A stretch of 52,776 bases of DNA from Candidatus Woesebacteria bacterium RIFCSPHIGHO2_02_FULL_42_20. Its GTDB lineage: Bacteria; Patescibacteriota; Microgenomatia; UBA8517. The stretch is taken from positions 122,882 through 175,657 of the forward strand of contig MGGS01000001.1 in assembly GCA_001792535.1 (NCBI GenBank), read 5' to 3'. Made by a program: the position numbers and the translations under genes. The first letter of the stretch is position 1. Each line of letters begins with the position of its first letter. A model generated the notes under the pieces. That model worked only from the letters and a program-made list of their open reading frames with translations, did not search any database and was not told the DNA's origin. Below are positions 18,954-21,532 of the stretch, in pieces.

Positions 18954-19625
18954 ATGTTTAAACTCTCGCCAAGCGACTTTGCTTATTTATACGAAGAATG
19001 CAAGCTTTGCTATTATCTTAAAATAAAACAGGGAATTCAAAGACCGTTCTCACCTTTTCCGGCAGTCTTTACCGCCCTTAACACACGCATCCAAGGAGCA
19101 CTTATTGGCAAAGATCTGCGAAAACTGTCGTCAGTTTTACCATCAGGCATCGTCGAAAGCCAAGAAGGTTTTGTTGAGTCCCAGCTTGTACCAAATACTC
19201 AACTTTTTATCAAAGGCAAATACGATCTTTTAGTCCGTCAGCCGGATGGAACATATTTAATAGTCGATTTTAAAATCAGTCAGCCGAGCGAGGAAAAGAT
19301 TGCCAAATATCAAACTCAGCTCCAAGCATACCACTACGCTTTTGAGCATCCGCAAAAGGGAGACATCAAAAACATTACCAAACTAGGGCTCATTGTTATG
19401 TACCCGGATAAAACAGTGTTTAATGATGGCAAAGTGGTTGTTGAATTTCCGCCAAAGTGGCTCGAAGTCAGTATCCACAAAGACTCCTTTCTCTCTTTTA
19501 TCTATGAGGTTAATTCCTTATTGAATGGGCCAACACCCAATGAAAATCCAAATTGCGGGTGGTGCCGCTACAGACACTTGGGTGAGCATCTTACCCACCC
19601 GACACAAAGCGACCTGCCGTTTTGA
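18954..19625 (+). CDS. PD-(D/E)XK nuclease, Cas4/RecB-like, with possible Fe-S cysteines
   Basis: GKYDLLV..GTYLIVDFKIS (D...DxK), QLQAY (QxxxY motif), cysteines EECKLCYYLK and NPNCGWCRYR. Confidence 0.87.
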   Translation: MFKLSPSDFAYLYEECKLCYYLKIKQGIQRPFSPFPAVFTALNTRIQGALIGKDLRKLSSVLPSGIVESQEGFVESQLVPNTQLFIKGKYDLLVRQPDGTYLIVDFKISQPSEEKIAKYQTQLQAYHYAFEHPQKGDIKNITKLGLIVMYPDKTVFNDGKVVVEFPPKWLEVSIHKDSFLSFIYEVNSLLNGPTPNENPNCGWCRYRHLGEHLTHPTQSDLPF

Positions 19626-19626
19626 T

Positions 19627-19655
19627 TTGACAAATGAAAATGACAGCAATATTAT
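19627..19655 (+). promoter_or_regulatory. Predicted thrS leader promoter
   Basis: TTGACA (19627-19632), 17-nt spacer, TATTAT (19650-19655). Confidence 0.75.
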
Positions 19656-19668
19656 ACAAACAGCTAAC

Positions 19669-19707
19669 ATGAATTTAGTAACCACCACAACTACTGTAGC
19701 CCTTTAG
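19669..19707 (+). CDS. Candidate thrS leader peptide MNLVTTTTTVAL
   Basis: ATG AAT TTA GTA ACC ACC ACA ACT ACT GTA GCC CTT TAG: five consecutive Thr codons, 62 nt upstream of thrS, followed by alternative hairpins and a terminator. Confidence 0.8.
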   Translation: MNLVTTTTTVAL

Positions 19708-19757
19708 GGAGGTAGAAGAGTGGTTTTATTTTCACCTCCTCACAAGGGAGGTTTTTT
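19680..19757 (+). promoter_or_regulatory. Candidate transcription attenuator (thr leader)
   Basis: GGGAGGT (19707-19713) and GGGAGGT (19746-19752) both complement ACCTCCT (19734-19740). The Thr codon segment AACCAC (19680-19685) complements GTGGTT (19720-19725). Confidence 0.8.
19734..19757 (+). terminator. Intrinsic terminator of the thrS leader
   Basis: ACCTCCT-CACAA-GGGAGGT followed by TTTTT. Confidence 0.85.
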
Positions 19758-19771
19758 AGTATTATATAAGT

Positions 19772-21532
19772 ATGGGTGATCAAAAATATCTAAACAACTT
19801 AGGCCACAGCTGCGCACACCTTCTGGCCAAAGCAGTGAAAGACTTGTGGCCTGGAACTAATAATGCCATCGGGCCATCTATTGAAAACGGTTTTTATCAG
19901 GACTTTGATTTTGGCACCGTAAAAATCAACGAAGCAGATTTTCCAAAAATTGAAGAAAAAATGAGACGGATTCTCCCAACCTGGACACACTTTACATTTA
20001 ATGAGGTTTCATTAGCCGAGGCAAAAGAACTATTTAAGGAAAACCCCTATAAGATTGAGTTAGCGGAAGAGTTTGCAAAAGGAGGGAAAAAGTTGTTAAC
20101 AAATGATCCAGGAAATTTCCTAGACCTTTGCAAAATGGGGCATGTGGAAAATCCAGCTAAGGAAATGCAGCATTTTAAACTACTTTCAATTGCCGGAGCT
20201 TACTGGCGGGGAAGTGAAAAAAATAAAATGCTGACCCGTATTTACGGCACCTGTTGGCCGACTAAAAAGGAATTAGACCATTACATCTGGCAACAGGAAG
20301 AAGCTAAAAAAAGAGATAACAGAAAACTTGGAAAAGAATTAGAACTTTTTACAATTTCCGAGGAAGTCGGCCCAGGGCTCATTTTATGGCTACCCAATGG
20401 AACTATAATCCGGGAAGAAGTAGAAAAATTCGGTAAAAAAGTCGAGGCCGACTATGGCTACCAACGAGTAGTAACACCCCATATTACTAAAGAAGGACTT
20501 TATATAAAATCGGGTCATTTGCCTTATTACGCAGCCGACATGTTCCCCCCAATGGAATACGAGGGCCAAAGATATTACGTCAGGCCAATGAACTGCCCCC
20601 ACATGCACATGATATACCAATTCAAAACGCGATCATACAAGGAGTTTCCAATTAGATACGCCGAGTTTGGAACGGTTTACAGACACGAAGACAGCGGAAC
20701 ACTTTTAGGACTACTTCGTGTCCGCGGCCACACAACCAACGACGCTCACATTTACTGCAGCGATGACAAACAAGTCATAGAAGAACTCGTAAGCGTTCTC
20801 GAGATGCATGAGTACTACTACAAAATATTCGGAATCAAGGATTATTATGTCGAGCTTGCTCTGCCTGATTTTATCAAGAAAAAAGATAAGTATTTCAACA
20901 ACCCGCCCGCGTGGAAAAAAGCTATAAAATTACTTCGAGAAGCTGCCAAGATATCCAAAATAAAAGTAGTGGAGCAGGAAGGCAATGCTGCTTTTTACGG
21001 CCCTAAGTTTGACTTTAACATTAAAAGCGTCATTGGCCGTGAGTTTGGCGCGTCAACCAATCAACTCGATTTCGGATCAGGTAAAAGATTTAATCTAACT
21101 TTTGCGGACAAAAATAGTAAGGAAAAAATAGTTCCTTACATTATCCACCGTGCGCCTTTGGGTTCACTGGAGAGATTTATCGGTTTTCTGATTGAACATT
21201 ATGCAGGTGCATTCCCGATTTGGCTTGCACCTGTACAAGTCAAGGTGTTACCGATCACTGATAGAAATCTAGAGTATGCAAATAAAGTGTTTAACGAGTT
21301 GCGCGTTAACGAGTTGCGCGTTGAACTCGATGACCGCAGCGAGACCTTGCAGGCTAAAATTCGCGATGCCCAAATGGAAAAAGTTCCCTACATGCTTATT
21401 GTCGGCGACAAAGAAGAAGCGGCCGACAAGGTTGCGGTGAGGACGCGCGGGAGCGCTGACCTCGGGCAAGCCTCTTTGGAAAAAATAACCTCAGAGATAA
21501 AAGACAAAATTGCCAACAAAGTCATTGATTAG
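19772..21532 (+). CDS. thrS: Threonyl-tRNA synthetase without TGS domain
   Basis: Begins directly in the editing-domain region (LGHSCAHLLAKAVKDLWP); class II motifs VRPMNCPHMHMIY, FGTVYRHEDSG, IIHRAPLGSLERFIGFLIEHY; C-terminal anticodon-binding domain. Confidence 0.97.
   Translation: MGDQKYLNNLGHSCAHLLAKAVKDLWPGTNNAIGPSIENGFYQDFDFGTVKINEADFPKIEEKMRRILPTWTHFTFNEVSLAEAKELFKENPYKIELAEEFAKGGKKLLTNDPGNFLDLCKMGHVENPAKEMQHFKLLSIAGAYWRGSEKNKMLTRIYGTCWPTKKELDHYIWQQEEAKKRDNRKLGKELELFTISEEVGPGLILWLPNGTIIREEVEKFGKKVEADYGYQRVVTPHITKEGLYIKSGHLPYYAADMFPPMEYEGQRYYVRPMNCPHMHMIYQFKTRSYKEFPIRYAEFGTVYRHEDSGTLLGLLRVRGHTTNDAHIYCSDDKQVIEELVSVLEMHEYYYKIFGIKDYYVELALPDFIKKKDKYFNNPPAWKKAIKLLREAAKISKIKVVEQEGNAAFYGPKFDFNIKSVIGREFGASTNQLDFGSGKRFNLTFADKNSKEKIVPYIIHRAPLGSLERFIGFLIEHYAGAFPIWLAPVQVKVLPITDRNLEYANKVFNELRVNELRVELDDRSETLQAKIRDAQMEKVPYMLIVGDKEEAADKVAVRTRGSADLGQASLEKITSEIKDKIANKVID

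Follow-up and report, generated by a model that had tools for sequence, protein, structure and literature searches.

Ribosome-mediated transcription attenuation by leader peptides is a classical mechanism in enterobacteria, where it controls trp, his, thr, leu, ilv, pheA and pheST. The threonyl-tRNA synthetase (ThrRS) gene, thrS, is subject to translational autoregulation in Escherichia coli and to T-box control in Firmicutes. The candidate phyla radiation (CPR, or Patescibacteria) is a very large group of gene-poor bacteria, most of which are uncultured; those in cultivation rely on other microbes, and the lineage is thought to import most amino acids. In Streptomyces lividans, a leaderless Thr leader peptide has been proposed at thrL-thrS (PMC8079986). 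Attenuators have also been described at trpS and leuS in Actinobacteria (PMC1262725) and a His leader at hisS/hisZ in bacilli (PMC2965389), and thrS is absent under that name from both of these papers. Here, we analyzed the thrS leader in a 52,776-nt stretch of DNA (the window) from Candidatus Woesebacteria bacterium RIFCSPHIGHO2_02_FULL_42_20 (contig MGGS01000001.1, positions 122,882 to 175,657), whose genome (G000) is a 1.08-Mb draft with a completeness of 98%. We conclude, with a probability of about 0.88, that this leader is a ribosome-mediated transcription attenuator of thrS sensing charged tRNA-Thr.

The region at positions 19627-21532 of the window contains a promoter, a short open reading frame (ORF) with consecutive Thr codons, a set of competing strands ending in an intrinsic terminator, and thrS (Table 1). 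Strand 1 overlaps the first of the five Thr codons. Every base position that an earlier note on this DNA had claimed for the promoter, the leader ORF, strands 2, 3 and 4, the U tract and the stems was verified by string checks. Its assignment of the DNA to a CPR-type genome also held, as the best relatives of this thrS were found in Roizmanbacteria, Woesebacteria and other Patescibacteria; the genome is of the Microgenomates type. In the surrounding 3.5 kb, 6 promoter-like and 4 terminator-like sites were counted, versus 5.2 and 4.5, respectively, in shuffles, so that both elements are ordinary by themselves. The feature that stands above chance is the combination of the parts and not the promoter or the terminator singly. 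Since these two are unremarkable and the fold energy is only mildly low, the question becomes whether the combination recurs.

For this, thrS was searched in the genomes of the family (50), order (57), class (374) and phylum (287), and the upstream DNA was then collected. The 400 nt upstream of thrS were scanned for short ORFs at 136 distinct loci, nearly all of them from CPR and mainly from the same class; 69 assorted non-CPR thrS loci served as the outgroup. A short ORF with at least four consecutive Thr was present at 22 of the 136 loci and one with at least five at 10, while the same scan for each of the other 19 amino acids gave 0 or 1 locus. None of the 69 non-CPR loci carried a Thr-run short ORF upstream of thrS. 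The leader peptide reads MNFVTTTTTLTQ in a sister species of the same genus, MLLLTTTTTSSA in a member of the family, MRKISSYETTTTTFS in a Roizmanbacterium and MHKVLIVTTTTTTIPV in BroJett025; other members belong to families f5, f8, f10, f11, f19 and f30 of the same class and, outside it but within the phylum, to f72 and f105. The members inspected share one order of elements, namely the Thr run, the stop codon, a G-rich strand 2, a C-rich strand 3, strand 4, the U tract and thrS. A strict DNA pattern (ACCACAACTAC..GGAGGNTTTT) gave three sites in the 374 class genomes, all upstream of thrS, and none with the reversed control; this pattern is specific yet too narrow for a census.

The competition between the stems was examined for 28 leaders, representing nine or more CPR families; the strand sequences vary among them and the switch is retained. 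An automatic search placed an intrinsic terminator behind the Thr run in all 28. The 2:3 pairing, between the 5' arm of the terminator and the region behind the leader ORF, was better than in dinucleotide shuffles (Fisher p 2.4e-19; 19/28 leaders below 0.05), as was the 1:2 pairing between the Thr codons and the same region (Fisher p 1.2e-12), both values being strong rather than exact because the leaders are partly dependent. Strands 2, 3 and 4 change together, as GGAGG/CCTCC/GGAGG, GAGGG/CCCTC/GAGGG, GGGAG/CTCCC/GGGAG, GAAGG/CCTTC/GAAGG, CGTGG/CCACG/CGTGG (L190) and AAGGG/CCCTT/AAGGG (L318), where strand 2 was chosen as the best match and the dinucleotide-shuffle pairing test is the control. 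The earlier note had proposed to look in relatives for a conserved Thr run and for covarying alternative stems, and both were found. The distance from the Thr run to the stop codon is 6-12 nt in most leaders, and that from the run to the terminator is 34-61 nt. Given the former distance, a ribosome on any of the Thr codons would leave strand 2 free, and a ribosome at the stop codon would cover it.

The effect of the ribosome was calculated by equilibrium folding with an assumed footprint, its 3' edge being placed ~15 nt from the first nucleotide of the codon in the P site. For the window, this gave the terminator a probability of 0.91 when no ribosome was present; the value fell to 0.00 if a ribosome occupied the early Thr codons and was 0.94 if it stood at the stop codon. 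The 1:2 pair probability was 0.96-0.97 without a ribosome, and that of 2:3 was 0.96 in the stalled state. The mean probabilities of the terminator over the 28 leaders were 0.85, 0.18 and 0.95 with the ribosome absent, stalled and at the stop codon, respectively, and the stalled value was lower than the stop value in 25/28. The probability dropped by more than 0.5 in 79% of the real leaders versus 3% of those with a shuffled strand-2 region. The trp/pheS-type logic suggested for this leader, in which stalling frees 2:3 and fast or absent translation keeps the terminator, is thus borne out by three-state folding, and folding the leader, also proposed in the note, reveals the switch once ribosome positions are included. 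The leaders therefore have a cluster of cognate codons in a short ORF, a terminator between this ORF and the gene, and an antiterminator competing for the 5' arm of the terminator; the folding, for its part, lets the position of the ribosome select the structure (antiterminator when stalled, terminator at the stop codon or without a ribosome). As far as can be read from sequence, this is the classical attenuation mechanism.

The anatomy, the recurrence and the three-state folding lead us to infer the following for the start of transcription, the translation of the leader ORF, the stalling and termination steps and the reach of the operon. RNA polymerase would initiate near 19662, the predicted start, which places the leader ATG only ~7 nt from the 5' end, and a ribosome would load onto the 12-codon ORF, which is nearly leaderless. 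With ample Thr-tRNA, it would reach the stop codon (19705-19707) and cover strand 2, so that 3:4 would form and transcription would end at ~19757. With scarce Thr-tRNA, it would stall within the five-codon Thr run and cover strand 1, leaving strand 2 free for 2:3 pairing and preventing the terminator. The resulting read-through would allow transcription of thrS, probably together with infC-rpmI-rplT-pheST behind it. In the absence of translation, 1:2 would form and protect the terminator. The overall outcome is probably that threonine shortage leads to the synthesis of more ThrRS.

Table 1. Features of the thrS leader and its surroundings (positions in the window).
Feature	Position	Strand	Basis or remark
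Promoter of the leader transcript: -35 TTGACA 19627-19632 (6/6), 17-nt spacer, -10 TATTAT 19650-19655 (5/6)	19627..19655	+	string match
Leader ORF, 12 codons, ATG to TAG, MNLVTTTTTVAL	19669..19707	+	string check; Thr-run leaders in 28 CPR thrS upstream regions
Five regulatory Thr codons, ACC ACC ACA ACT ACT	19681..19695	+	string check; Thr-specific enrichment
1:2 hairpin: AACCAC 19680-19685 (strand 1) with GTGGTT 19720-19725; CTAC 19691-19694 with GTAG 19712-19715	19680..19725	+	folding, pairing test
Strand 2, GGGAGGT, proximal antiterminator arm	19707..19713	+	first base is the last base of the leader stop codon
Strand 3, ACCTCCT, arm common to antiterminator (2:3) and terminator (3:4)	19734..19740	+	
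Strand 4, GGGAGGT 19746-19752, then TTTTT, completing the intrinsic terminator	19746..19757	+	
-10-like TATTAT downstream of the terminator, 6 nt 5' of the thrS ATG; candidate second, leaderless promoter or unrelated signal	19760..19765	+	
thrS, threonyl-tRNA synthetase, ATG 19772	19772..21532	+	TIGR00418, 615 bits, cutoff 384
infC, rpmI, rplT, pheS and pheT, closely behind thrS	21565, 22091, 22286, 22629 and 23625	+	infC and pheS identified; rpmI, rplT and pheT by ORF position and sequence by eye

On its upstream side, the attenuator is adjoined by a gene for a PD-(D/E)XK / Cas4-like nuclease (18954-19625).

Several observations weigh against the attenuator. The fold of the whole leader, taken as a single sequence, is only mildly better than that of shuffles (z = -1.76; 10/200). 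A Shine-Dalgarno sequence is present in 1/25 leaders and is missing at the leader ORF of the window, the translation of which we infer. Three of the 28 leaders (L004, L190 and L209) retain the terminator at equilibrium even when the ribosome is stalled, and so does the window if only the part from 19707 onward is free; where the terminator persists in the stalled equilibrium fold, the predicted switch must be kinetic. By the scan criterion, 114 of the 136 sampled thrS loci are without a run of four Thr, and as the sample consists of top-scoring matches, partly picked by family, with no random draw, the frequencies are no census; judging from these loci, the device is recurrent rather than universal. 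Finally, the TATTAT beyond the terminator could feed transcription past the attenuator, which bears on whether thrS transcripts start downstream of 19757.

This last point leads to the rival that has to be weighed most carefully, that thrS is driven mainly by a leaderless promoter at the TATTAT, with the attenuator being minor or acting on top of a constitutive level. In addition to the position of this hexamer at the window thrS, -10-like hexamers peak 6-7 nt before thrS in 12/25 members and 33/156 non-members, and they peak 6-8 nt before start codons generally in the Microgenomates loci examined, which suggests widespread leaderless genes in this lineage. Of 24 other leaders, 11 are preceded by a correctly spaced, perfect TTGACA, and the -10 ends only 6-17 nt before the ATG, so that the leader ORFs of these 11 are nearly leaderless as well. 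The putative bypass promoter, however, has no good -35 (3/6 matches), and the same motif occurs at 13/79 genes that follow a preceding gene by less than 25 nt, so it may be no promoter at all. The retention of the attenuator parts in many genomes also suggests that they are important. We therefore regard control mainly from the TATTAT as unlikely, although the hexamer could either act as a bypass promoter or mark leaderless genes, and this is the main uncertainty concerning the share of control held by the attenuator.

The remaining rivals are far less probable. The hairpin at 19734-19752 might serve to terminate the nuclease-like gene upstream, with the Thr ORF being a coincidence, as the ordinary frequencies of promoter-like and terminator-like sites would allow. 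This chance origin was rejected as hardly credible, being contradicted by the recurrence of a Thr-run ORF plus terminator upstream of thrS (28 leaders, of which several lie behind or near tRNA-Val), by Thr as the sole enriched residue, and by shuffles that do not switch. Autoregulation by ThrRS on a tRNA-like operator, as at E. coli thrS, or a T-box would be an established way of controlling this gene elsewhere, but neither requires a run of Thr codons at such spacing. An Rfam scan of the window and 20 member loci, at gathering thresholds and at E<=10, returned only tRNAs and chance matches. In these sequences, the T-box covariance model (stem I) gave no match, nor did any other cis-regulatory family, and the window gave no tRNA-like match, although no model of the E. 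coli thrS operator was searched. We consider such an operator or T-box very improbable, and ribosome-mediated attenuation is the preferred explanation.

Some leaders depart from the common arrangement. In L135, L146, L150 and L172, the attenuator and thrS are 290-490 nt apart, and a small ORF, often with a good Shine-Dalgarno sequence by eye, is found between the terminator and thrS; this ORF may be the first regulated gene. Family f83, from another class of the phylum (L286, L289, L292, L300, L312-L315 and L317), has Thr-run leaders before thrS, most of which end in ..TTTP or similar. Directly after the run, and overlapping the last Thr/Pro codons, these carry a hairpin of the CCCC-loop-GGGG type with no U tract. 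Their read-out would be a different one.

Cognate leaders were also seen at other genes. In the same genomes, an upstream terminator occurs at five hisS loci, each of which has a His-rich leader ORF; a Phe-run leader (MTGKLALTSFFFFSHC) precedes pheS in G217, and a WW leader precedes trpS in G199. The ileS upstream regions of these genomes showed no terminator and no Ile leader, and cognate runs alone were not enriched at hisS or trpS, the signal being clear only once a terminator was required. In L220 (G339), a His leader (MTNKSKLSHHHRPV) and a terminator are followed by a tRNA-like sequence with the anticodon GTG (His, by eye) and then by hisS; this tRNA-His may share the attenuated transcript with hisS. 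A gene-independent leader scan of ~770 kb from two genomes (~370 kb of the window genome and 400 kb of G170), with 115 terminators, gave seven candidates: thrS twice, His leaders twice, one Ile/Leu/Val-rich ORF and two weak Phe-containing ORFs, for which no downstream gene was found. The Ile/Leu/Val-rich ORF (MTESVLNLVLVIIILTLYIAG; G170:C1, position 56468 of the 200001-600000 stretch, minus strand) and an accompanying antiterminator/terminator lie upstream of a gene resembling GCS2 (glutamate-cysteine ligase family 2).

The window genome itself, outside the window (G000:C1:206380-207330; L364:6380-7330), has a His leader (MTFRFTQNHHHEPA) and an antiterminator/terminator before a DapF-like gene (206548-207330). 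In NCBIfam, this gene matches histidine racemases only, at E 2.5e-27 and well short of the curated cut-off, and the same holds for its G170 homologue. A His-rich ORF and a terminator precede ~9/14 DapF-like homologues in 280 genomes of the class by eye (also L398, L400-L403 and L405-L407). At L398:984-1361, L400:1014-1328 and L402:1057-1383, the His-run ORF makes up the C-terminal part of a TrpR/YerC-like gene. The encoded protein terminates at or close to His codons, and the gene lies immediately upstream of the racemase-like gene; this regulator gene may double as an attenuator leader. It should be noted that the shuffle test covered the Thr leaders, and that the His, Phe, Trp and Ile/Leu/Val leaders are leads. 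Taken together, we lean toward the broader view that leader-peptide attenuation, often with near-leaderless ORFs, is a main form of single-amino-acid sensing in Patescibacteria. It would act at thrS, where no T-box was seen upstream, and at hisS, histidine-racemase-like genes, pheS and trpS, with the His-ending C-terminus of a TrpR/YerC-like gene serving as the leader in some genomes.

The interpretation of the thrS leader is thus supported, and its scope is wider than the earlier note had assumed. We found no described single-amino-acid sensor of CPR bacteria in the literature, and no work linking leader peptides with Patescibacteria in this sense, subscription papers being largely outside the search. 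The novelty that the earlier note had inferred for the leader probably holds for Patescibacteria, but the idea of a thrL-thrS leader had already been proposed once, weakly, in S. lividans (PMC8079986). The use of ribosome-mediated attenuation at CPR thrS appears to be undescribed. If our reading is true, leader peptides would reveal from sequence alone which amino acids are limiting in CPR cells and which genes respond, and they would suggest substrates for unknown genes, such as histidine for the DapF-like family. Tight coupling of transcription and translation in CPR would also be implied. Being compact, each leader lends itself to testing in vitro or in a surrogate host.

In comparison with known systems, the CPR leader resembles the classical enterobacterial attenuators in its short ORF rich in cognate codons, its 1:2, 2:3 and 3:4 stems, its intrinsic terminator and the release of the antiterminator by stalling. 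It differs from them in its target, thrS, in its nearly leaderless ORF and in the lack of sequence homology as judged by Rfam; the Thr_leader family of the enterobacterial thr operon gave no match in the window or the 20 member loci, so the two are alike in working and not homologous by this test. The E. coli thrS operator and the Firmicute T-box likewise raise a short ThrRS supply, but they use different sensors, of which the Rfam scan gave no trace here. The trpS and leuS leaders of Actinobacteria and the hisS/hisZ leader of bacilli are further cases of attenuation at synthetase genes outside Proteobacteria, in phyla other than CPR. Another counterpart, thrL-thrS of S. lividans, also has a proposed, leaderless Thr leader peptide upstream of thrS. 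That peptide contains two Thr in MKRVRPFLETTPGFVPAR and has no clear terminator (PMC8079986), whereas the CPR leader has five consecutive Thr and a full switch, and it is found in many genomes.
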